Assembly (NCBI GenBank): GCA_900095095.1 | Contig: FMBT01000310.1 | Coordinates: 1-64,000 of the forward strand | Direction of reading: 5' to 3' | Source: Fragilariopsis cylindrus CCMP1102 | Taxonomy: Eukaryota; Bacillariophyta; Bacillariophyceae; Bacillariales; Bacillariaceae | DNA length: 64,000 nucleotides | Shown: positions 6,038 to 36,500 of the stretch, one piece after another | How the letters are laid out: every line of letters begins with the position of its first letter | How positions within the stretch are numbered: position 1 is the stretch's first letter | Translations under genes and position numbers: made by a program | Notes under the pieces: generated by a model | Told to the model about the DNA's origin: nothing | What the model saw: the letters and a program-made list of their open reading frames with translations, nothing else | The model's database searches: none

Positions 6038-6109
6038 ATGGAAATATTACAACCACAACCACACAACCACAAACACGTTCGATTTAATATTAGAAATATT
6101 GATTTGACC

Positions 6110-7438
6110 ATGGCAAAATCCAACCGTAACAACGCTGAAGAGCCAGCCAAGGAGGCAGCCAAGGCGAAGAGGGTCAATAGAATCAGCGGGTTCAAACCGT
6201 TCCTCTATGACGCAGAAGAGTGGGATACAAAATCTCCATCTCAGATCCTCAAGACAACTGAAAATGGAAATAGAATCGATAATAAGATGTACATTTTACA
6301 GGGTGATGAAACACCTGAACAGTTAATGTTATGGATCAAGAACTACAATGACAAGATCAATGTATCTCTTGCACCAGCAGCACGATTAACCTTCCTTAGA
6401 AGAATCGTGGACAAGGAAGCACAAACCATCGTAAGCAATGTGGAAACAGCTTTTGAAAGCTATTCCGATGCTGAAGATATTGACCTGATTGAAGATCAAA
6501 CTATCAGAGATGAGATCAGAGACGACTGTCCTGATGATGCTACCATTGATGTATACTTTAATGCTGGAACTGCAGCGCAGAAGAGAAAGAAGATAACACA
6601 TATCATTCGTGAATGTATGTATCATCTTAAGCTCAAGATTTTTGGTAATGAAACTCTTGGAAGATCAAGCTTCATTCAACTAAAGAGAACCATACGTAAT
6701 ATGAAGATCTCACCACAACTAGGAGTAGCAGCATGGAGTAAAAGGTTCGATACCTTCCAACTGTACCTTCCTATGTGTCTATGGGACGCAGGAGCCAAAA
6801 GAGGACTTTATCCTACTAGGTATGATGAAGAAAACTGCAGGGAGATACTAGAGTATGCTCTATCTCCTGTCTACCTCACCAAGCTTCACGATGATGGGTG
6901 ATGCTTGCAAAGCAACCCACATACCCAGTCAATCACCAAGCTCAAGGAAATTGAACCTGGTATTCTTAAACAATTAAAATTTGTAAAAGAACAGTTGCAA
7001 CAAGCAAAAGATATTGCTGAATTGCAAAAGGGAAAAGGAAAATCTTCCAGTGCTTCCGCTTCTCGCGATCGAAAGCAGAGTAGTGGAGACAAGCGCAAAC
7101 GCGAGTGTGCAACTTGTGGCAAGAACCACGCAGGTGAATGCTGGAAACTCCAGAATGGAGGAGGAAACAATAGTGGGCGTAAAGGCAACAACTATAATAC
7201 CTTCAACAAGGAAGCCAAGCAATACATGAAGAGCATGTTTGCAAGGCACAAATCGGGCGCAAGCTCCGATTCAAGTGATTCCGACGATGACTCTTGGAAG
7301 CAAGGCTTGAATCAAGCAGAGCAAATGCATGTGTTAGCATCAGCTGGTGTTGATCCTAACGAACGCGATATCAATTTCGATCCGTCAGATCTTAAAAGAT
7401 ACAAGAAGCAAGCTCGAAGGTTCTTCAAGAAGGGCTGA
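6110..7438 (+). CDS. Gypsy Gag with CCHC-like knuckle, interrupted by TGA
   Basis: The start at 6110 sits in a good initiation context (ACCATGG); the same frame is open from 6038. The first part (to 6898) is the capsid-like region. An in-frame TGA (6899-6901) is followed without frame change by the nucleocapsid part, which carries a short zinc knuckle, CATCGKNHAGEC (near 7100), in a Lys/Ser-rich context. A second in-frame TGA at 7436-7438 precedes the protease. At both stops the flanking codons read on in the same frame, so TGG to TGA substitution or stop read-through would each give a continuous Gag-Pol. A selenocysteine role is not suggested. Confidence 0.8.
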
Positions 7439-8980
7439 AGTACCAACAAGAAGCCAGGTAGGATCCTTCACAGGCCTACACCGGTACTAGTTGGTACTGT
7501 TGATGGTACATTATATCCAAGTCGGGCAAAGCTACTACATGGTGCAAGGCGCTTCTGCGAAGTGCTGCTCTCTATCAACGTCAATGGACGTGATACTATG
7601 GCTCGATGTCTCCTAGACACTGGATGTACCAAGTCAATGATACTAAAACAGTTTACAGACAAGAAGCGACGAACCAAGTTGTCAAAGGAAAATACTATAC
7701 GATATGAGACATATGGTAGTACATTCCACTCCTCAATGACAGCTAGCGTGGGCTTCAAGATGATTGAATTTGAAAACCAAAAGAATCAAACCATTGAATA
7801 CAAGTTCCAAGTGGATGAAACATCTAACCCAAGAAAAGAACAGTATGATGTTATTATTGGGAATGATCTCCTCTGGAACATGGGTATCAATATCTTATTC
7901 AAGGAAAAAGAAATTCATTGGAATAAAGATAAGATCCCTCTAAAGACTATTGGTCAGTTGCACAACCGTGCCACCTGTAACATGCTCTATAGCATGCACA
8001 CCGATAGCCCTCTCCTACAAGAAGCAGAAGAGAGACAAAACAAGATGCTGGAATGCAACTACTCCAAGGTTAACATCGATGCGATGGTCAATGACTTGGA
8101 AATTGATGCTACCAACAAGGAAAAGCTGAAAAAGACCCTTCGAAAATTCGAAACGGGTCTCTTTGGTGGAGGTTTGGGTACGCTCAAACACTGTAAGCCT
8201 GCACACATCAAGTTAAAAGATGGTGTGGTGCCGTATAAAGGAAGATACTTCAATCTTCCCAAGGCTTACGAATATATAGCTAAGAAAGAAGTGGAAAGAA
8301 TGGTCAGCATTGGTGTACTTGAAGAACTACCATGGCATGATGATAGCCCATGGCCTCACCGTCATTTGGTGTATCCAAGAAGACTGGTGATATTCGAATT
8401 GTAACAGACTTTCGAGAACTCAACAAATGGGTTGAAGTAGATCCATTTCCACTACCTCGTATCAACGAAACACTGCAGAAGCTTGAGAAATTCAAGTCTG
8501 CAACAGCACTGGACCTATCTCTTGGTTTTTATACAATTCCACTTGATGAAGAGAGTCAAAAGCTATGTGCAACTATACTACCCTGGGGGAAGTATAGATA
8601 TCTACGGATGCCTATGGGTGTTGCGTGTGCTCCATCTATGTTTCAGTCTATAATGACAGAGACACTTAGAGGTCTAGATGTACTCGTATACATCGATGAT
8701 ATACTGGTGATTCAACGAGTAAATGAATCAACAGAAAATCACTTACAAAAGGTAGAGCAAGTTCTGCAGCGTCTACAAGATGCCGGATTCAAAGCTAACC
8801 TTAGGAAGAGCTTCTTCATGCAGAAGAGTGTGGAGTATCTTGGATACCAACTCACTAGCGAAGGTATCGGTCCACAGCCAAAGAAAATTGAAGCAATGGA
8901 TCGAATATTACCACCAACTAGTGGAAAACAACTAAGAAGATTCTTAGGAATGATAAATTTCTATAGAGATCTCTTCAGAG
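7439..8980 (+). CDS. Gypsy protease and reverse transcriptase, frame-broken
   Basis: Directly after the TGA, the same frame encodes an aspartic protease with the active site LLDTGCTKSMIL (near 7610). A linker follows, and the RT N-terminus ends in DDSPW at 8350. The conserved continuation (ASPSFGVSKKTG, then FRELNKW and the YIDD catalytic motif near 8689-8700) is in the -1 frame. One missing base at the CCATGGCC site would explain this. RT runs on to FLGMINFYRDLF, where it meets the nested insert at 8981-8984. It copies element RNA into DNA in the cytoplasmic particle. Confidence 0.88.
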
Positions 8981-8984
8981 GAAG

Positions 8985-9976
8985 GGCGCGTTCCAGCTCA
9001 AGGTGGTATTTTGTGGGACACTCGCGACTAAAATTTTAAATGCGCGAGGCTCGCGACAGAAAATTCTTCAAAATTCTTAAGAATTGAAATGGAAAATTCC
9101 TTTATATCAACATGAAAATGGGAATGTATTGAAACGAACCTCCATGGATATTGATCTATTTAACAAAAGCTTATGACTCGAAATATAGATATTTGAACTC
9201 TTAACAAGGACAAAAAGTTTGGGTTGAATTTGGTCATTTGGGGAAAATTCTATGAGGTTATACATGGGTGGCAGGCGAATTTCGAATCGCCAGGAAGAGG
9301 TGCATAAGAGAGGGAAATTAAAAATCAAAGAATGGATTGATAGATAAAGTACTAATACAGAAGTCTCTATTTCTGTTATATTAGTTAATGCGATAATTCT
9401 TATACATATTGTTACATTAAGAGAGGACCCATTTTCAACGGGTATGTAGGACGTGTTTTTTCGGAAAATCCGATCATGTGTGTCTTTTACTAAGAGAGAG
9501 GTTAAGTAGTTAAAAATACATCAGATTAAATCGAAATTTTTTGTCCTTGTTAAGAGTACAGACATCTGTATTTCGTCTATAAAGTTTGTATTAAACAAAC
9601 CGATACCCATGGAGGTTCGATTCATTACATTCCCATTTTCATGTTGATACAAAGGAATTTTCCACTTATTACTGCATTGGTGCGCGATAAATAATAATTT
9701 TCAAACATTGATACCGTACACCATATGGGGGAAATTCTCCTTGGATGAGTACCAGGTCATTGGCTACACTACCTAGACCTGTCGATAATTTGGAATGTGT
9801 AGAATGCCCATGGATAGGTACTGGAGAAGGTTTGAGAAGCTACCATACAGTTAAAAATCCCCCCGATTGATGGTACTTCACTGCATAGCGCGTGTTAACC
9901 AATCCCGTGTGGCAGGCGTCTGTCCGCAGATTGTCACACAGTAGCGAAAAAGTATCACATCCGCGCGGAACACGCC
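8985..9976. mobile_element. 992-bp non-autonomous DNA-transposon-like insert inside gypsy pol
   Basis: The insert splits the gypsy RT from its RNase H. Its ends are GGCGCGTTCC (left) and GGAACACGCC (right), an imperfect terminal inverted repeat that extends weakly inward. GAAG flanks it at 8981-8984 and 9977-9980. Removing the insert plus one GAAG rejoins the Pol frame exactly (YRDLF to RSHILSPL), which confirms the borders and the duplication. There is no transposase. Inside are two long imperfect inverted arms. If the border is moved by one base, the duplication reads GAAGG. I cannot assign a superfamily. Confidence 0.85.
9090..9664. repeat. Long inverted repeat inside the insert
   Basis: The left arm (about 9090-9233) and right arm (about 9521-9664) are reverse complements with scattered mismatches. 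For example, GGAAAATTCCTTTATATCAA at 9091 pairs with the sequence at 9645-9664, and CTTAACAAGGACAAAAA near 9200 pairs with TTTTTGTCCTTGTTAAG near 9537. The loop is about 290 bp. Such a structure would fold into a long hairpin RNA if transcribed. Confidence 0.85.
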
Positions 9977-9980
9977 GAAG

Positions 9981-11886
9981 GAGTCATATCCTATCCCCCT
10001 TGAATGAACTAGCAGCAGCTTCAACAAAGAAAAAGAACAGTACCAAACGTCCGATTCCATTTCTAATGTTAGAAAAGCATCTAACTGCTTTTAACAAAGC
10101 CAAGGAAATGATCAAAACAGATGTACTGTTATCATTCCCAGACTTTGACAAGCCCTTTCATCTGTATACAGATGCGAGTGACATCCAACTGGGTGCAACT
10201 CTAGTACAAGATGGCAAACCACTTGGATTCTATACAAGAAAACTCAGCGATCCACAGCTAAACTATACAGTAGGAGAAAAAGAACTCCTTGGAATAGTAG
10301 AAGGTCTAAAAGCCTTTGCTGGTGTTATTAGAGGACAAGATCTTACGGTACATACCGATCACTTGAACCTCTTGTATGCCAAGCTGCCAAGTCAACGTAT
10401 GATGAGATGGAGAAATCTTGTAGAAGAATATAATCCTAAAGTGGTCCACATTGCAGGCATTGATAATGATGCTGCAGATGCTCTATCAAGATTAGATCTT
10501 AATGACAAGGCTGATGACTTGAGAGTGTGGGAACAGAAACAGAAGAGACTACAGTATGAAGATGTAAAGATGATGAATCTTTGCATGTTTATGTCAGAAT
10601 CAAACTTCACGGAAGATGGATTTGACTGTGATAGCAACATACTGATGACTACTTCAAACAACGTACCATCGTATCCATTAGATCTACAATCAATGCAAAC
10701 AGCACAGCTGAATGATGAAAGCTTAGTAAATATGGTCGACAGCCATATTAAAGCAAGTAACAGTACAAGTTCAACGACCTACACATACAAGTCTGTGGAA
10801 GGAATTGAACTGATACACAAGAATAATAGAATCCTGGTACCCCAATCAAAACAACAAGTTGTATTAGAGTGGTATCATAATATCTTAATTCATCCAGGTG
10901 AAAAACGCATGATTGAAACAATCAAGCTAGTATTCACTTGGAGCGGTCTCAACAAGCAGGTAAAACAGCTTGTCAAGACCTGTCATGAGTGCCAGATGTA
11001 CAAGAAAGCTGGCAAGAAAAAGTACTCACTACTACCACCCAAGACTGCAGAATCTATTCGATGGAATAGAGTTAATGTAGACCTATGGGGACCAAAGTCA
11101 GTAGTGAACTCAAATGGTTTTACATATGAAGTACACGTAATGACCATGGTCGATCCAGTTACTGGCTGGTTTGAACAACAGCAGTTATATGGTCCTCCAA
11201 CAGCATACAGATGCCAACAAATCCTTGACAGTGTGTGGTTATCAAGATACCCACGCCCAAATGAAATTGGATTTGATAATGGAACTGAATTTAAAGCAGA
11301 GTTTGCTGAACTCTGTGATAATATGGGTTTAAAACAAAGACCAAGCAATGCTTGGAACCCTCAATCAAATGCTATACTAGAACGTATACACCAAGTGTTG
11401 GGTGATGGTTTAGCAACATTTGATTTAGAAAATACACCAATCGATCCGGATAACGAAGATCCATTCGATGAGTACCTCTCTTCAGTAGCCTATGCAATTA
11501 GATCATCGTATCATCAATCGCACGGACACTCACCAGCACAGCTTGTGTTTGGAAGAGATATGTTTTCACCAGTATCAACTGAAATTGACTGGAATGAAAT
11601 CAGGAATAATAAACAAACAAGAATAAACAAAAATAATATTAGAGAAAACTCAAACAGAGTACCTCACATCTATCAGGAAGGTGATATCATCACACTGAAG
11701 AAACCAGGTATCCTCCGCAAGCTAGCAATACCTCGCGAAGGACCTTACAAAGTTATTAAACATAACAACAATGGATCAATATTAATTGAAAAATCCCCAA
11801 CAGACATCAAGAATGTGAACGTTAGGAGGGTTATTCCATACTATCGCAAAGCTGAAACTCCTACCATCATTAACAACAGTGAATGA
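9981..11886 (+). CDS. Gypsy RNase H and integrase
   Basis: The frame resumes after the insert with RRSHILSPLNELAAAS. RNase H follows: FHLYTDASDIQLGATL near 10155, the Glu in VGEKELLGIVEGL, HTDHLNL near 10350 and the terminal DADALSR-like DNDAADALSR near 10470. Next comes the integrase zinc-binding domain (His pair in WYHNILIHPG, Cys pair in CHECQMYK, 10870-11000). The catalytic core has Asp in VNVDLWGP, Asp in IGFDNGTEF and Glu in NAILERIHQ. A chromatin-binding-like C-terminal tail ends at 11886. This segment is uninterrupted over more than 630 codons. Confidence 0.92.
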
Positions 11887-27000: not shown

Positions 27001-29520
27001 GAAACGGAAAAAGAAAGAACGAGAGAGGCAGCTTAAGAAGGAACAGGAGGACAAGATTATAGCAGAGGAGATGAAAAAGGAAGAAAAACGCAGAAAAGAG
27101 GAAGAAGCAAAGGATGCCGCAGAAAGAGAAGAGCAGCAACGTCTAGCTATGGCACGAAAGAAGGAAGAGGATGATACTCGTCGAAAGCAAGAAAAATCTA
27201 TTCGGCAACAACAACAAAAGGAGCAGCAGATGCACCGCAAAAAACTTCGAAAGGAAGAAGACGAGCGAAAGAAGCTTTTACAACAACAAAAAGAATCCGA
27301 GAAGGGTAAAACGGCAATGGAAAGAATGGGCAAATGTCGGTCGTTCAATCGGTTGAGGGCCCGAAAGAAACTCCACAATCCTCTTCTACGAATCAAACGA
27401 ATGCGGTTGTTGCAAAAAATGGTGTTCCGAAAAAGGCAAATTCTTCCAATAGTGGGGGGAACAAAAGAGGGTGGGAGTCTATTCCAGCTGTTAAGAAATC
27501 TCTACCCGAAACTTCCAACACGACGAGTACTACCAATGGATCGAAAGAACAAGCTGCGACATCGTCAAAACCTGATACAACGAACGATAAAACAACCTCA
27601 GACCAGGAATCATACGCTTCATCTCGGAATTCAAATGAAACTATTGTAGGAACCGAATCTGCCGTTACTTCTATTGTTAACCAGAAACACGTAAACTCAA
27701 TGGATTCATCATCAACAACAACGGCAAGTTCTGGAGACTATGCCATCTCTGTGAGTTCTCAGAATCAGGGTGTTGCACCGAATCCAATTCATATTGCTGC
27801 CGTGCGAATCGAACCACCAGCCGTTTCTGTATTTCGTCGTGATAAGATCTCCGAGCTGTTGAATAGATGTTTCGCTGCGAAAGCTACTACCGATCCTTTA
27901 GGCTCTGTAGATTCAATTGTAGTGAAGAAGGTTTTGTTCCGTTGGATAATGCGAGCAGCACATGAGTCCTCTGCATACGTGGATTTCATTATTCCAAGCT
28001 GGAATGACCTCAACAAGCTTAGCACGTTTTTTCAACGCCAATTCATTTCGGAGACCCGAAAATTGGTTCCGACTACTGGTATTTCGATACGCATGGAGAC
28101 TTTGAAGGAAGCCGGGACCGTTTTAGCCCATTTGTGCCATAGTTTCGCTAAGGATGTCGCCGAATTTCACCGCCGGGTTGTTGGTCAACTCCCCCCAGAT
28201 TGGAATGACGCAATCATCGGAGTAAGCGTTTCCGGAGTTCCTTCAAACCTTGAAAACTCTTCCGTTGTTATTAATTGGGCTAATCAATCTCAAGTTACTA
28301 TGCCTACTTCTGTATTCATGACATTGAAAGAACGGTTCAAAGGTGCGACGCCTCAACTTTTGAGTTCCATTTTTGTTTGTAAGACATGCTATGATACAAA
28401 GCTACTGTTGATTGAGGACACCTCAATGGATTATAGTTTGACGGCGAACACACGGTCGAATATCTCATCAGAGTTGTCCGTGAGCGCGGAGGCTTGGTCG
28501 GATCCCTTTTCAGCCTTGAGTAGTAATTTATTCTGGGGACAATTTGCGGAAATTGATCGTATGTTCGGCGGGCTCGAGCCATTTGGTGCGTGTGATTTAA
28601 ATGATGATTTACTGTGCAAGCATGGTGGTTCCATTTCAGTGCTTACACCACCAGATAATATGCTTGCATCGAGATACTTAAACCGCATGATTGACATTCT
28701 GGATTCCTGTGAGCAAACAAACCTGCCAGTTTCATTTGCTGTTTTCATTCGCTCTGAATGTCTCGTGAATCAGAATTCCCTACCGTGTACAGATGATCTC
28801 TACACACTAGAGCCACGACTACGCAACCGCGTAAATTACATGAGTCGCGTTGAAACTCTGGGTGAGGGTCGTCATTTCTACTTCAGTGAAAAACTAGGTG
28901 GGCCTGAAGCCAGTACAACTACCAGCTTGTTCGTTCTCTTACAGAATTCATCGGGTAAAGACCGATTCCCACTCCGTAATGTTGGTATACTCGAAATTAT
29001 GAACTACATTAAGCCCGAGATCAAAAGAGTCGACGAATGTGCAGTAGATAGTGCTCCTACGTACGCACCCGAAATGACACAGAGAAACGACGACAATGCA
29101 TACATTTCTCATGCTGCACACTTTACTCAACCACAGCAATCTATAAACCTACCTGCTTCCCCTATTCCTCCCCACAGTACACTTCCTACCGATTTTAACT
29201 TCGCGTCAATTGGAAGATCTGATTCCACCTTTCCTAGCTCCTTTGGTCAAGATTCTTTGTCTGGCGTGCGTACAAGTAGAACCGGTACGAGACGCGGTCG
29301 TTTGTTCGATCTTGTTGACAATGGCGAAGAGGACAATACCATGAATGACGTGGACGTCGTGTCTGGTATGCTAGGAACATTAAATGTTGACCTCTTCCAG
29401 AATAGTGGTGCACAAGATGTTGATATTGAAGCAATCAGCTTGATGGGCATCGGAGACCCATCACATGCATCAACCGCTTTTCACCCTAGGAGTAATAAAA
29501 CTCAAGGACGATTCGGATAA
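24088..29520 (+). CDS. MATH-ankyrin repeat protein with PCIF1-like C-terminal region
   Basis: Exon 1 is 24088-26016 and exon 2 starts at 26159 (phase 0). Residues 1-330 are low-complexity Gln/Ser/Asn/Asp. About 332-481 is a MATH domain (CEFTHTIKDYS, GNKWRLIVYVNG, LSLFLQV, DWGWSQFI, DTLVVRASVTV). Ankyrin repeats run from about 490 across the intron to about 26700 (GGWSPLSIAAYKGHDEVVKL-like units). A Lys/Glu coiled-coil-like tract follows (26780-27330). The frame then shifts -1 near 27332, within CAAATG, and a 700-residue region continues to 29520. Part of that region (27840-28760) resembles the PCIF1 methyltransferase core, but the NPPF catalytic motif position reads LTPPD. A 62-bp intron (27306-27367) would be an alternative to the frame break. 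MATH-ankyrin proteins are usually adaptors; any enzymatic role is inference. Confidence 0.8.
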
Positions 29521-29820
29521 TAGCAATTTTCAATTTTCATCAATCAACTTTCTTCGTAAATACCTAAAACAAATCCTAATTTACTGATACTTATTACTAC
29601 TAGTTTTCTACAAGTACATCTAATTATTAACCTAGTGGAAGAGTCTACTGAGTAAAAGTGCATTGTATTAATAATATTATTATTTTATGAAGCACCAGAG
29701 ATGTGCTCCAACGATTCACCGATGAAAATAGGGTACGAGAAGTAGGAACTTGATCCTCTTTTGTACAAGTACGCGTGAAAGGTTGATTATTTTTCTTATT
29801 TATCAACGTCTGATATTTAC
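29521..29820. other. Convergent 3' region
   Basis: This lies between the stop of the MATH-ankyrin gene and the last terminal exon of syntaxin. AT-rich, no gene seen. Confidence 0.55.
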
Positions 29821-30165
29821 TTATTTTACAATAAAAAATATAACTATAGCAGCGGCTACAGCCACAATGAGGAGGATCCAACTATATGACAAAGAAAACA
29901 AACATACAAGGCGAGATTAAGTGATTCATTTATTCCAGGGTTTAATTACAATGAGAATGACCACAGTAGCGGCGACAGCCACAATGATAAGAAGCCAACT
30001 GTTGGCAAAACATGACAAGGAAAACAAGCAACATTCGATTCCAACAAATTAGATGAGATTTGTTTACTCATTTATTTCAGGTTTTAATTACAATGAGAAT
30101 GACAACAGTAGCGGCGACAGCCACAATGATAAGAAGTCAACTGTTGGCAAAACATGACAAGGAAA
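29821..30165 (-). repeat. Three tandem copies of the syntaxin membrane-anchor exon
   Basis: Copies begin after AG at 30140, 29998 and 29881, all entering in phase 2 so that the split Cys codon TG-T is completed. The first (nearest) copy has TGA at 30139-30137, where the second has TGG (CTGTTGGCTTCTTATC). Copies 1 and 2 are almost identical over about 110 bp including the intron. Copy 2 encodes WLLIIVAVAATVVILIVIKP and ends at 29926. Copy 3 is diverged, encodes WILLIVAVAAAIVIFFIVK and ends at 29821. Copies 2 and 3 are both complete tail anchors. Confidence 0.9.
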
Positions 30166-31552
30166 ACAAGCACCATTCGATTCAGATCAAATGCAGCCCA
30201 GCCAAATAGTGGCGAGTACACATACCATTGCTTTTTCCGAATCGATTTTTGATATTCGATAGCTGTGTGGGTCTCGACATTAGCTTCCTCGACGTAGTCT
30301 GTTGCCTGCGTTACGTTGAATTCAATTTGATCTAACAGTTCTCCTTGTTGTTCTGTTAGTAATGCAAAATCTAAAAACATTTGATGTAGTTCTGCAACCG
30401 ATTGTTCTAACGTTAAAACATCTTGATACTTTCCAGCCACTTTGGCGTATGTAGTTCTAGAGTAAAGGCAAAATAAATATGAATATGAATAAGGGAAGGT
30501 GTATGTGTGATTCAATCAATCATATAACACGATACCGTGTGTTCATGTATGTGTGTGCTGTATGACATGTAAATACTGCTATGCAAGAGATAGATATACA
30601 GAATCGTTTTTCATGTAACTTACTTTATTTGATCGTTAACACCTCCAGCAAGAATACTTTGTTTGTACAACGCATCTCGTCCACCTTCACTTTTCATAAC
30701 ATCATCGATCTCCTCGTCGGTCGCATCCGGTTTGATCACCTGTACCTGTCGCTTTACTTTCTTTTTAATATCAGTCTTATATTTTTGTTGTGACTGTTGA
30801 TAGATTTTCATCTCATCAATAAATTTTTTCGTCAATGTTGTGTTCATGTTTTCTCGGACACTATTTAATTTGAATTTTTATATTTTTTTGTTGAATCGAA
30901 AATTATTATTATTTTCATCGCATTGTTTATTAATTAATTGAAATAGTATAATAATAGTAACAGTAGAAGAACAACAACGATAACAAATACAAATATAATA
31001 AGAAACTGGTATATTCGTTCGCTTTCAAAGACGTAAACGTGCAAAATTGGCAGTACAGTATTGCAAAATTGGCACAGCGGAGCAAGAGCAAGAACAAGAA
31101 TAGAACAAAAATATAGTACAAAACAAGTACATACCGCACGTTGAAGCATTCAGTTTACCCTCATCCTTGAGTTTGTCTGTCTCTTGTTTGAGCAGTCCCA
31201 GTACATCTTTTGTACGTTTGGCGCTTTTATTAGTCGTGCCGATGAGTGGTCCGAGTTTCTTTGAAAGTTTTTGTTCCTCTGCAGTGGTTGTTGATCTCAT
31301 AGATTGTTCGTTGATACTGTCAATTTCTTTCGAGGCTTTTGCTATGGCTTTAATATCAGCATTACACGATCCACCTCGCTGAAGAAGGATGACATGTACT
31401 GATTGTCATCGTCTTTACTTTTCTGCATCTCAATGTCACCTCCACCACCACCGTTGCCGTTATTATTCCATTGAGCGTTTGTCATCCCCACCGCCGTCAT
31501 CAGAATCTGAGTCTGCCGCCCAAGCGGGTATATCTCCCATAAGATTATTCAT
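29821..31552 (-). CDS. Syntaxin-type Qa-SNARE with alternative terminal exons
   Basis: Exons on the minus strand are 31552-31140, 30860-30624 and 30456-30226, then one of three terminal exons (starts 30140, 29998, 29881). The first exon has the Habc-type segment, with acidic Met-rich IEMQKSKDDDNQYM and FFSEVDR before NADIKAIAKASKEID. The third exon is the SNARE motif: the Gln-layer part LHQMFLDFALLTEQQGELLD, then VEEANVETHTAI and the basic stretch IRKKQ. The membrane anchor follows in the terminal exon. Syntaxins drive fusion at target membranes with other SNAREs. Exon 1 changes frame twice (+1 or -2 near 31470, -1 near 31366) inside conserved sequence, which looks like sequence error. Splice phases of all other junctions fit. 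Confidence 0.88.
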
Positions 31553-32501
31553 GATGAGTTTTCAAGGTTAAAAAATCACTGGTTATCCGAAAGGCTAATA
31601 GCAAACGATTTAGCTTTTTGTGAAGTCGAAGTAAGTTAGATATATCTACAAATTAAATGTTACACGATCGTCCAGATTTAAGATTGTACGTGTAGGCATA
31701 ACCTCACATCCACAAAATGCATATGTAGCAAAACTGGAAGCACCATCAGATTCGCAAAAATTAAGACTCGGTCATATTATCGTCACATGATACCGGTAGC
31801 GGAGCGATTATTGTTTGTGGCGCGATTTTTTACGACTCATTAAGTCTTGCATACAACATATATTAGCAAACAAATTGTACGTATGGTGCTGTAGATCATA
31901 GTAATAGGTTCAGTCAATCAAAGTAATAACTACTGTCAGAGCATATAGTACTACAATTGACAGGATCCGATCCAATGTACAGGTCATGACTGTCTGAATG
32001 CAATATGACATTTTCGAAAATTTAGACACGAGCAAGCCTACTGGACGAGAAGTTGTGTGTGGGTGACTGCCATTGCCAGAGCAATAATATTTGTGGTCTA
32101 AGTCACTTAGATTAGTTGACCAACACTGTTAAAGTGCAGTGGGTCCCATCATGTACAATGCACCTATGATTCAAGATTATGATACACCAATAACAACCAA
32201 TTCAGTTCATATATTGTTGGCTGCTGTACAGAATAAAAATGATCCATTTCTAGAGAAGAATGATTATCACACCTAGCTAGATTCAGATATGACTGTCACT
32301 CGACTCAAAAATTAATATGAAGCCCAATTTTTTGTAAAGTGGTGAGCGTATGATATATGGTTGAGCAAAGAGTAGTAGTCGCAATTATTTTTAGATCGAT
32401 CATAGAGTAAGTAATTCACTATTGAATCTGCTGCCAGCACCGACCTCCCAATGAATCTGCTCTACATTCAATTTTATTTTTCCTTTTCATTTATCAGTTT
32501 T
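31553..32501. other. Intergenic region
   Basis: Upstream of syntaxin and downstream of the FKBP gene. No coding or repeat structure was recognised. Confidence 0.5.
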
Positions 32502-32948
32502 TTACAACTCAGTCTCACCGACTATACCCAATATTTCAATATCAAATAATAAATTTGAATTTGCTGGTATATAAAAAGCACCACCCTGACTACCCATAGG
32601 ATTAGAACCATACCCAAGCGCGGACGGTACATGCAAGTAGGCACGTTCTCCTATATTCATTTGTAGTACACCATCCGTCCATCCTTGAATAAGACCAACT
32701 CCTGGTTGAAATTCAAAAGGTTGATCAACAGCAGCACCATCTTCCTTACGTGTCGACCAACCGGATTTTTTTTTTATACCATTATCATCTTCAATGTATA
32801 AAGTAACCATACTTGAATAACGATCATCGCGTGTAACAGGCGGTCCCGATCCTTTCGAAATCACATCGACTTTGACAATCGACATACCTTGAACGACGGG
32901 CGCAGAAAGCGACACGAGGATAGCACAAAAGAGAAAAATCGTCAACAT
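32502..32948 (-). CDS. FKBP-type peptidyl-prolyl isomerase, secretory
   Basis: A single exon of 148 residues; the ATG at 32948 is the first in frame. Residues 1-21 are a signal peptide (LTIFLFCAILVSLSAPVVQG). The rest is an FKBP fold: VDVISKGSG near the start, then FEFQPGVGLIQGWTDGV, MNIGERAYLHVPSALGYGS and the closing PANSNLLFDIEILGI. This domain catalyses cis-trans isomerisation of prolyl bonds. No Phe-centred plastid motif or retention signal is visible, so ER lumen or secreted is likely. The mature domain has an extra Lys/Asp loop. Confidence 0.93.
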   Translation of the reverse strand: MLTIFLFCAILVSLSAPVVQGMSIVKVDVISKGSGPPVTRDDRYSSMVTLYIEDDNGIKKKSGWSTRKEDGAAVDQPFEFQPGVGLIQGWTDGVLQMNIGERAYLHVPSALGYGSNPMGSQGGAFYIPANSNLLFDIEILGIVGETEL

Positions 32949-33568
32949 CGTCAATACAGTACAGTATTATATTATTATATTATTTATTTATCTTGTGTGT
33001 CTCAAACAAGCAACAAAATAAAATGATACACAGTAACTTAGAGTTAAGTGTAAATCTTTTTGTAACGTAGTAAACGATTTGTTTTTAAAGTTATTGAGCT
33101 TTTGACTTTCACGTACAGTACAAACGTAGTCCGACGCAAGATTTGGCGAAAAAAACCGCGCGCGCCTATGTAATTTCGGTGACACGTGCTGATTTTCCTA
33201 AGTAATTGTTCGGAGCGTCAAAAGTATTATTGTACATTTGACTCTCCGAACGTATTTTCGACTCTTAAAACCGACTCAACTGACAAAATTGTACTAAGTA
33301 AAAAAACTACTAGTTAATATACAGTGTAAATTTTGAAAAAACAAGCTCTAATTAAAATTAATTAATCTAGGTGTACGTACGTCGTACAGTGCTTATAAAA
33401 AGCATGGAAACGTACTAGTTAAACAAGGGTGATGGCAATGGGCTCATAACCTGTAGAGACGAAAAAAAATGAAATTCGTCGACTTGCATGAAAAATACAG
33501 TATTTACACACATTCATGGGCTTGAAGGATGAATGTACTCGCTTGTACAACATATAATGAAGAACATA
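32949..33568. other. Intergenic region with a hairpin
   Basis: This is the 5' region of the FKBP gene and the 3' end of the unknown multi-exon gene. An 18-bp-arm inverted repeat lies at 33208-33251. No gene is supported. Confidence 0.55.
33208..33251. repeat. Inverted repeat GTTCGGAG-N-GTCAAA
   Basis: The left arm GTTCGGAGCGTCAAAAGT (33208-33225) and right arm ACATTTGACTCTCCGAAC (33234-33251) pair with two to three mismatches around an 8-base loop. GGAGCGTCAAAAAT recurs at about 38976 next to the tandem repeat, suggesting a shared repeat family. Confidence 0.8.
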
Positions 33569-36500
33569 TTATGAATGACGCCGACGATAGTGTGTAGTAG
33601 AACGTGGTTGAGGTTGATTCGGTTCATACTGTAGTCGTTGTTGATGATACGATCCAGATCTTGGTAGACGAGCAAACTGTTGAGGAGGTTGTTGAGTAAC
33701 CCGATTAGAATGAGATACTGAATATTCCATTTGATTGCCATGATCAGGTGAATAAGACATGCGAGCAACCCGTTCAGTTCTCTGTTCATAGATTGGTTCC
33801 TGTTGTGGAGGAGGATATGATCGACGGACAGCTTGTTGAGGAGGGGCATCATATGGATCGAAATGACTGTGCTGTTGCCGATGATACGACTGATCTTCAC
33901 GCTGTTGTAGTAGAGATTCAATTCGGTCGTCAATAGACCTTTCGACCACAGGTGCACGATGATACTGTTGTGGCGGAGGAGGTGGTGGAGGATACATCTG
34001 ATCTCTTTGATGATACAGTGATTCAATTCTGTCATCAAGTGAGAATTCAGCATCACGTGGACGTTGATAGGACTGACGACGATGATACTGTTGCTGTTCA
34101 GGAGAGCGTTGAACAGGTGCGCGCTGACGATGTACTACCTGTTGATGTTGCCTAGGAGACTCAATACGGGGTTGATAAACCTGTTCTTGTTGCTGTCGAA
34201 GAGATTGAATTTGGTCTTCAATAGCATCATGAGCACGTGCAGAACGATTGGGTAGATGATGATGACGTTGAGTAGGCTTGATAGGAGCAGGTCGTTGTAG
34301 CTGTTTTCGTTGCTCCATCCATCGATTAAGTTCCTCATCAGTCATATCATCAGTAAGGCTAGGAGGTGGATCCAAAACTGACTCGCTCCGACCTGGAAGA
34401 TTGATTGCAATTAAAGAGATGACAGATAGAAAAAGTGAGTTAGAAATATGATGTGGAAGAGTTATAAATGGATACGCACCTCGTGCCTCAAAGAGACGGC
34501 ACTTCGGAATACAGTGAATGATACATAGGAGAGCGTACCTCGGTTGATTATCGGACCATTTGGAGAGTTTTGTCTCTGGAAGCGTGTAGGTCGTGTATTA
34601 GAATCAATGGTATCGAAGGACCCGGTTCGGTTGAATGGTGTTGTTGAGTAGAGGATCATCGTTGGCACATGAAGCCGGGCGAGGTTCAAAAACAATTGGA
34701 TCAGAATCAGTATTTGGTGGAGGCACCGACTGAGATCTAGGTTCAGCTTCTATAATATAGCAATAACAACAATAACATAACATGTTAGAAACAGTACTGA
34801 TAACATAGTCACAAATAAACAAAACAAGTACTGATAACACATACAAAGTAAACAAAAAAAATAGAACTTACTTGGAAGTGAAACATTCATTAGAGCAGCA
34901 GAGGCTCTATCTCTAGCCATTTGGGTGGACGCATCGTATCCAGATGTGACAACTTCACCCTTGTGACGACACATACTCAATTTGAGACCTGCTCAAATAC
35001 CCTCCGTGTTTTGGATGACAGTAACACCAGCCTTACGATTGCTATGACCAGTGTTAGTATCAGGGTTGTCATAGTGTAATAAGTGAGCAAGCTTCTTTGA
35101 GCTCTGAGTAAAGTGCTTGGGTCCCCAACATTGACCGACTTTGGGACCAGCCATCCATGGCTTAGATGGAGTTTCTTCCCGCCATTCCTGTTGATGAAGG
35201 ATAGAGATGAAATGTATAACAATACAATATGAGGTGAGACAAATGAAGGAAAAAATTCGATAATAACAACAGCATCAACAACACCAACCAAGACACTCAA
35301 CGGAAACGACGACGACATTACTCAATAACAACAACAACAAGATTAGACTTACTTTACGTTGTTTTTTGGAAGCGATATACCGGAAGATGCGAGCAGGACC
35401 AATAATACGGTCTTTCGGTGGTAACACTTTATGAAAGTATGTATAAACAAGATTGTATTCACTCATAAGATCATCATCGACTTTATACAAAGGAACGTAT
35501 TGTCGGTCATCTTCACGATCACGATGAGTGTGATTAGAAAGAGTGATATCAGCATTCTTCTGACCATTGTGATTGGATTGAGAATGAAAGCAGGGCAATC
35601 AACAAAATATCCTTCGGTTTGAGTAAAGAAAATGAAATCATCAATCACCATCTCGGATGGTTCCTTGGAGGATCGTGACATGAAGTGGGTTTTAATGATC
35701 TCTGCAATCACCCAAGTAAATATTCGTAGTTGATTACATTGCCATCCGCGTCCATGAGTTTGAATACATGGTTGGGATCAGCATGACATGCTTCTCGCTT
35801 CTCCTATACTTGGAATCATGAGTAGCGGCATTCGGAGTAGTGCCAAAGTTAGGAATAAGCTTGGAGGTATCAGCAAAGACGTCCTTCCAGTAGGCACTAA
35901 CACCACCTGATATAATAGAAAATATGTGGAGGAGGGCATGATAAAGTGAGCAAAGGAAAAATCAAATAGTCGACCGGCTGACACACATATAACAATGATT
36001 ATGCTGAAAACAAACCCCAAACCTTTGACAGGCGGGATGGTCGGATGGCTTGTTTCTAACTCCAGCCACTTATTCAGCTTGGTAGCTGACCCTTAATAGC
36101 ATTGAAGCCTAGGGGGGCACAGGTCGAATAGAAACAAGTTGTAGTAGCAACGACGTACACACGCATACATAGACACACATACATAGACACAACGACACAT
36201 ACATAATCACAACGACGACGATAACAACATATATGTATTGACATACCTTTTCCATTGAAATGTTGGCTAATGAAAGCAGTTGACTCCTCTGGTCTTGAAG
36301 AAGAAAAATGTCGATAGTTAGTGGCAACCACATTTGGTTGATACTGGGCCTTGGCAAATTCCATGGCGTCTTGAATTCTTTGCCAACACACTTGAGTTGA
36401 ACGAAGTTGACAGACAGTTGAAGCAGAGCACTATTCATATCTCTTGTTTGTTGGTGGTAAGCACCACACATTCAACATAAGACGTCGCTTGAGTAGGTTA

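Follow-up and report, generated by a model that had tools for sequence, protein, structure and literature searches.

Can a single syntaxin gene supply one and the same SNARE body with more than one membrane anchor? The question is raised by a gene on the minus strand (31552-29821, three introns) of the window, the 64,000-nt stretch of Fragilariopsis cylindrus CCMP1102 DNA that was analysed. Downstream of the exon for the SNARE motif, the exon for the C-terminal tail is present in three tandem copies, designated A, B and C in order of distance from the shared donor. The features of the gene are as follows.

31135 to 31552, minus strand: exon 1, N-terminal peptide and part of the Habc domain (boundaries taken from motif positions)
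30624 to 30860, minus strand: exon 2 (boundaries taken from motif positions)
30226 to 30456, minus strand: exon 3, SNARE motif (by SNARE match), ending in ...IRKKQ and the TG of a Cys codon
30141 to 30225, minus strand: intron 3 if spliced to copy A, with donor GTATGT; the frame is open when the intron is retained
30068 to 30140, minus strand: copy A, with TGA right after the Cys codon and TGA also at the second Trp position
30042 to 30067, minus strand: spacer 3' of copy A, equal at 15 of 26 nt to the spacer after copy B
29926 to 29998, minus strand: copy B, intact anchor CWLLIIVAVAATVVILIVIKPWNK, with a near-identical tail on the relative P0001
29821 to 29881, minus strand: copy C, intact anchor CWILLIVAVAAAIVIFFIVK, with an identical tail on the relatives P0002, P0003 and P0009

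The Habc domain was recognized by the Pfam Syntaxin model (PF00804) both in the read-through protein of the window (E 3e-15) and in P0001 (7.5e-18), and the SNARE motif matched PF05739 above the cut-off. The central Gln of the SNARE motif aligns with that of syntaxin-1A (EQQGE versus ESQGE), and we take this residue to be the zero layer. The top PDB match of P0002 was to syntaxin-1A chains (E 2.6e-35), with Sso2 and Sso1 further down. Copies B and C supply a C-terminal tail anchor, which copy A lacks. Judged by these matches, the gene is a plasma-membrane-type Qa-SNARE of the syntaxin-1/Sso type from a Fragilariopsis-like diatom. The Pfam Syntaxin and SNARE domains are common to syntaxin-1A/Sso Qa-SNAREs and the diatom protein, while the tandem tail exons belong to the diatom gene.

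Exon 3 ends at 30226 with ...AAA AAG CAA TG, and the only donor, GTATGT, starts at 30225. Three in-phase acceptors follow, at 30140 (copy A, AG/TTGA), 29998 (copy B, AG/TTGG) and 29881 (copy C, AG/TTGG), each of which completes the Cys codon; the corresponding predicted introns are 85, 227 and 344 nt long. Splicing to copy B is predicted to yield a protein ending in ...IRKKQCWLLIIVAVAATVVILIVIKPWNK (stop at 29926) and splicing to copy C one ending in ...IRKKQCWILLIVAVAAAIVIFFIVK (stop at 29821), while the predicted product of copy A ends in ...IRKKQC. The sequence-only reading of this DNA had described three tandem copies of the tail exon with in-phase acceptors behind the donor at 30225, and both its coordinates and its products were confirmed from the sequence. 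Its observation that the nearest copy has TGA where the others have TGG, so that the product would end in KKQC, also proved correct; in fact, both Trp codons (TGG) of copy B read TGA in copy A. Decoding of the TGA of copy A as Trp was considered and ruled out, since the stop of copy B itself, at the homologous place, is TGA. Assembly accuracy permitting, copies B and C provide at least two tail exons in cis, in the same phase and each encoding a full anchor. The two anchors are of equal length and have mean hydropathies of 3.26 and 3.27; they differ in their packing residues and in the short KPWNK end. A role of the tail in setting the location of the protein, as the sequence-only reading had suggested, is hypothetical; in the worm precedent described below, the two isoforms share the plasma membrane as destination.

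The copies had been described as tandem terminal exons. That there are three copies holds, but since their acceptors lie 117-142 nt apart, the array is better described in terms of alternative tandem 3' splice sites than as separate terminal exons. Likewise, with all copies located within 344 nt of the donor, the simplest mechanism would be tandem 3' splice-site choice with a shared 3' end. The 25 nt upstream of the acceptor are identical in copies A and B. By eye, a TTGTTTTCxTTGTCAT stretch precedes the acceptors of A, B and C, lying 9 nt nearer the AG in C; it is possibly a branch-point or pyrimidine element. RNA structure was considered as a means of selecting the acceptor and rejected, as the predicted fold of 29820-30240 was unremarkable (z -0.61), with 27 of 100 shuffled sequences folding as well.

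A search over approximately 5.8 billion proteins retrieved 736 relatives, of which the best 120 were examined. The top two of these, P0001 and P0002, carry different tails. P0001 (315 aa, intron-free, jgi, one contig of 1301 bases) ends in the B-type tail CWLLLIVAVAATVVILIVIKPWNQ, which is two residues off copy B of the window (LLL for LLI and a final Q for K), while P0002 (312 aa, intron-free, jgi and lgn, one contig of 1174 bases) ends in a tail identical to copy C. Their bodies are equal at 291 of 291 aligned residues and are set apart by one Asn indel. Since the gene in the window has three introns, the contigs encoding these intron-free proteins are probably cDNA-like. The Asn indel implies different alleles or individuals, so that tail use could be allele-specific. 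The exact C tail was also found on P0003, which differs from P0002 at 16 of 289 body residues, and on P0009, a Fragilariopsis cylindrus CCMP1102 gene model with one Asp/Glu difference from the window. A search with the B-tail region returned 16 proteins, with P0001 first and the sole one at 95% identity across the whole region; the three C-tail proteins came after it.

To judge the difference between the tails, 115 full-length proteins were compared, which gave, among the matches listed, 109 pairs with body identity of at least 0.90. In the 35 pairs with 1.5-6% body divergence, which are not independent of one another, the ratio of tail to body change was 6.2. P0001 and P0002 differ at 7 of 20 tail residues and at 0 of 291 body residues, for which P is about 1e-9 if half a body change is assumed, again with the pairs not independent. 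The claim that two of the copies encode different complete anchors was borne out, with a B-type tail (P0001) and a C tail (P0002) found on the same body. These records, from the same or a very close species, indicate that one body occurs in nature with either type of anchor, be it via splice choice or via allele.

We consider it fairly probable that the single donor is joined to more than one acceptor and that one SNARE body is thereby equipped with one or the other of two tail anchors. According to this explanation, the last exon lies in a tandem array, and the donor after the SNARE exon would join alternative acceptors in it, giving the body either a B-type tail (ending in IKPWNK or IKPWNQ) or a C-type tail (ending in FFIVK). 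Both B and C keep in-phase AG acceptors, which argues for such use; P0001 and P0002 rest on a single contig each. The explanation further supposes that the P0001 and P0002 sequences derive from cDNA, that one allele would make both tails and that the choice between them would be regulated. By analogy with UNC-64 in C. elegans, the B and C anchors may be functionally non-equivalent.

The comparison of the copies bears on how long the anchors have been maintained. Between copies B and C, 17 of 57 nt and 8 of 19 residues have changed, without any charged residue being introduced, and 18 of 18 anchor positions are apolar in both (Thr counted as apolar). When either copy was allowed to change neutrally in a simulation, 0.5-2.8% of the trials, according to the transition rate used, kept all of the 18 positions apolar and acquired no stop. 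Since such apolarity is rare under neutral change, selection has probably acted on both copies over much of the period since they separated. Copies A and B, on the other hand, are identical at 111 of 116 nt (Tandem Repeats Finder score of the pair, 481), so that a repeat by chance can be dismissed, and two of the five substitutions convert the only two TGG codons of the exon to TGA (P of about 0.003 for at least two premature stops out of five random changes). Their identity ends sharply: 10 of the 25 nt beyond the 116-nt block differ (Fisher P = 9e-6), and upstream of the blocks merely 10 of 42 nt match. The 26-nt spacers that follow A and B have 15 positions in common, where shuffled sequences have 7.6 on average (P = 0.002). 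The near-identity, previously taken as the mark of a recent duplication, is real, but its sharp edges fit an older, gene-converted array equally well; a recent duplication with filler and an older array with gene conversion limited to the exon block both fit.

The quality of the sequence has to be considered here. Compared with P0001, the frame of exon 1 is broken three times, by a single base each (near 31480, 31365 and 31140), while the remaining body matches closely. It follows that base-level claims need re-sequencing, and that we may be dealing with a pseudogene allele or with a poor assembly. At 27330-27650, too, ORFs overlap in different frames, in a gene that looks ankyrin-like by eye. 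The overlap at 27.3-27.6 kb suggests another frame break, and the breaks in the two regions (31140-31480 and 27330-27650) together suggest uneven base accuracy of the assembly. In a search of the genome (67.9 Mb, 818 contigs), queries of 761, 921 and 2001 bases each found the syntaxin locus once, with no second allele; the 921-base query had one short extra match elsewhere (48 query bases, 90%). With the locus found once, these searches gave no haplotype copy to compare. Two other SNARE genes were each matched on two contigs with equal scores. The published long-read assembly of F. cylindrus is described, in the sections available, as 745 primary contigs (59.7 Mb) and 288 alternate contigs (9.1 Mb) (PMC5634323).

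For copy A, a second search was performed with the intron-3-retained frame as the query, and the best 120 of its 589 matches were examined. Together with the best 120 of 736 from the first search, this gave 240 fetched relatives, which were clustered at 90% identity. A KKQC terminus was found in none of these 240 proteins. The unspliced frame of the window is open across intron 3 into copy A (30226-30080), where it ends in a Cys-rich peptide. The signature of such reading into intron 3, RKKxW[YCSG], is present in 53 of the 240 proteins from the best 120 of each list. One relative, P0121, represents nine member sequences (118 aa; contig of 4784 bases); its frame passes through the same intron into the near copy and differs from that of the window at three residues. 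At one of these it has Ala for a Thr of the window, and this Ala requires a G at the position where the TGA of the window has its third base; the codon in its near copy therefore cannot be TGA, and is TGG if the neighbouring base is unchanged. P0121 and P0122 carry other versions of intron 3. Two full-length proteins among the best 120 of the first search, P0013 and P0008, end no more than 24 residues past KKQ, with apparent retention of intron 3. Anchor-less forms may therefore arise through intron-3 retention in related species, as exemplified by P0013 and P0008.

If copy A is real, its acceptor, which is nearer the donor and preceded by the same 25 nt as that of B, should compete well, and this allele should then make anchor-less mRNA. 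A purposeful use of copy A, yielding a syntaxin without anchor that would serve to regulate fusion or have a role elsewhere, would agree with this likeness and position of its acceptor, with an 85-nt intron close to the ca. 91-124 nt estimated in four relatives, and with the short ends of P0013 and P0008. Nevertheless, we regard it as very unlikely, since no protein among the 240 (the best 120 of each list) ends in KKQC, P0121 is without the TGA, and a stop in the UNC-64A anchor of C. elegans caused complete loss of function, as stated in the available text of PMC4946901. The soluble form via copy A that had been proposed earlier found no support on the first two of these points. Copy A as written most probably represents a minor allele, a copy that has decayed or is not used, or an error in the consensus, rather than a regulated soluble form. 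An error of this kind is part of another explanation, by which the near-identical A/B pair, though not copy C, is an assembly artefact, produced by haplotype versions placed in tandem or by consensus errors at the TGA sites. The frame breaks in exon 1, the single syntaxin locus beside two contigs for each of the other SNARE genes, the near copy of P0121 without TGA and the uneven accuracy of the published assembly, whose fosmid alignments ranged from 0 indels in 43 kb to 135 in 29 kb in the sections available (PMC5634323), all speak for it. We still hold it to be rather improbable, because a 26-nt spacer separates A from B, the sequences upstream of the blocks hardly match, P0121 has the same intron sequence ahead of its near copy, and the five differences between A and B are substitutions, unlike the known breaks in the gene, which are single-base indels. 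Such an artefact and a choice between the B and C acceptors can be compatible, and the likelihoods of the alternatives are not mutually exclusive.

Tail choice could also be allelic, with diverged haplotypes using one tail each and the array being a by-product of exon turnover by duplication, switch and decay. The extra Asn that sets P0001 and P0002 apart as different alleles, the decayed look of copy A, the intron-3 variants in the close relatives P0121 and P0122 and the high divergence of F. cylindrus haplotypes, as given in the accessible part of PMC5634323, are all consistent with this. It is, however, unlikely, given that a single contig carries both B and C, each intact and with its acceptor in phase, and that their divergence looks constrained. 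Splicing of one donor to either B or C remains the explanation that we prefer.

The closest precedent for such splicing is unc-64 of C. elegans, whose alternative last exons 8a and 8b encode anchors that are equally long yet not equivalent in function; both UNC-64 isoforms reach the plasma membrane, and the choice between them is controlled by UNC-75/CELF (PMC4946901, available sections). The diatom array is alike in anatomy and differs in its third copy, which bears a stop, and in that a tandem repeat can be recognised. In unc-64, the regulator and the non-equivalence of the isoforms have been demonstrated; for the diatom array both are hypothetical. Splicing also alters the anchor in mammalian syntaxin 2 and syntaxin 3A/3B, in STX3 together with the sequence of the SNARE domain (PMC11119284 and PMC4946901, as excerpted). 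Compared with STX2 and STX3, which are animal genes, the gene of the single-celled diatom would change only the anchor, at one conserved intron. In Phaeodactylum, ca. 24% of genes were reported to show intron retention and 20% exon skipping in the portion of PMC5859163 consulted, so that at least one diatom makes common use of alternative splicing. Among the open-licence PMC papers listed, there was no report of syntaxin tail splicing in diatoms, and the alternative syntaxin anchors in the cited portions of these papers come from animals (worm and mouse). If the preferred explanation is true, the information content of the anchor itself could be tested in a simple cell, where two tails of one gene could be exchanged cleanly for each other.

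Other diatom pairs were inspected for the same pattern. P0032 and P0037, a moderate outlier, differ at 2 of 286 body and 6 of 20 tail residues (P = 1.5e-4, pairs not independent), which hints at one body with two tails and at wider use. Among the 24 closest pairs listed, P0001/P0002 and P0001/P0009 are strong outliers and P0004/P0005, P0034/P0035 and P0018/P0027 weak ones, while 12 of the 24 have zero differences over the compared tail residues. Near-identical bodies with different tails were also seen in P0007/P0014, both full-length diatom syntaxins. Like P0032/P0037, the pairs P0004/P0005, P0034/P0035 and P0007/P0014 suggest alternative tail exons in other species. With tails changing about six times as fast as bodies, and with pairs that are not independent of one another, widespread alternative tails are a lead only. 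It is possible, though doubtful, that interchangeable anchor exons form a general, conserved membrane-sorting code in the plasma-membrane syntaxins of pennate diatoms, by which several species would join one SNARE body to two or more anchors; the arrays would be subject to turnover through duplication, decay and gene conversion. No comparable repeat of at least 35 nt was found at two other SNARE loci, L001 (from base 1500) and L004 (whole), to which this check was confined, their probable haplotype partners L002 and L005 being left out; L004 has one 37-nt repeat pair, 39 nt apart.

Elsewhere in the window, ORFs at 6038-11886 resemble an LTR retrotransposon by eye, with reverse transcriptase- and integrase-like frames that are broken in places. 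The region at 32450-34400 has 26 further matches in the genome (68-90% identity), including three of similar score, ca. 6.35 kb apart, on contig C306. An ORF named FKBP-like by eye is located at 32502-32954.
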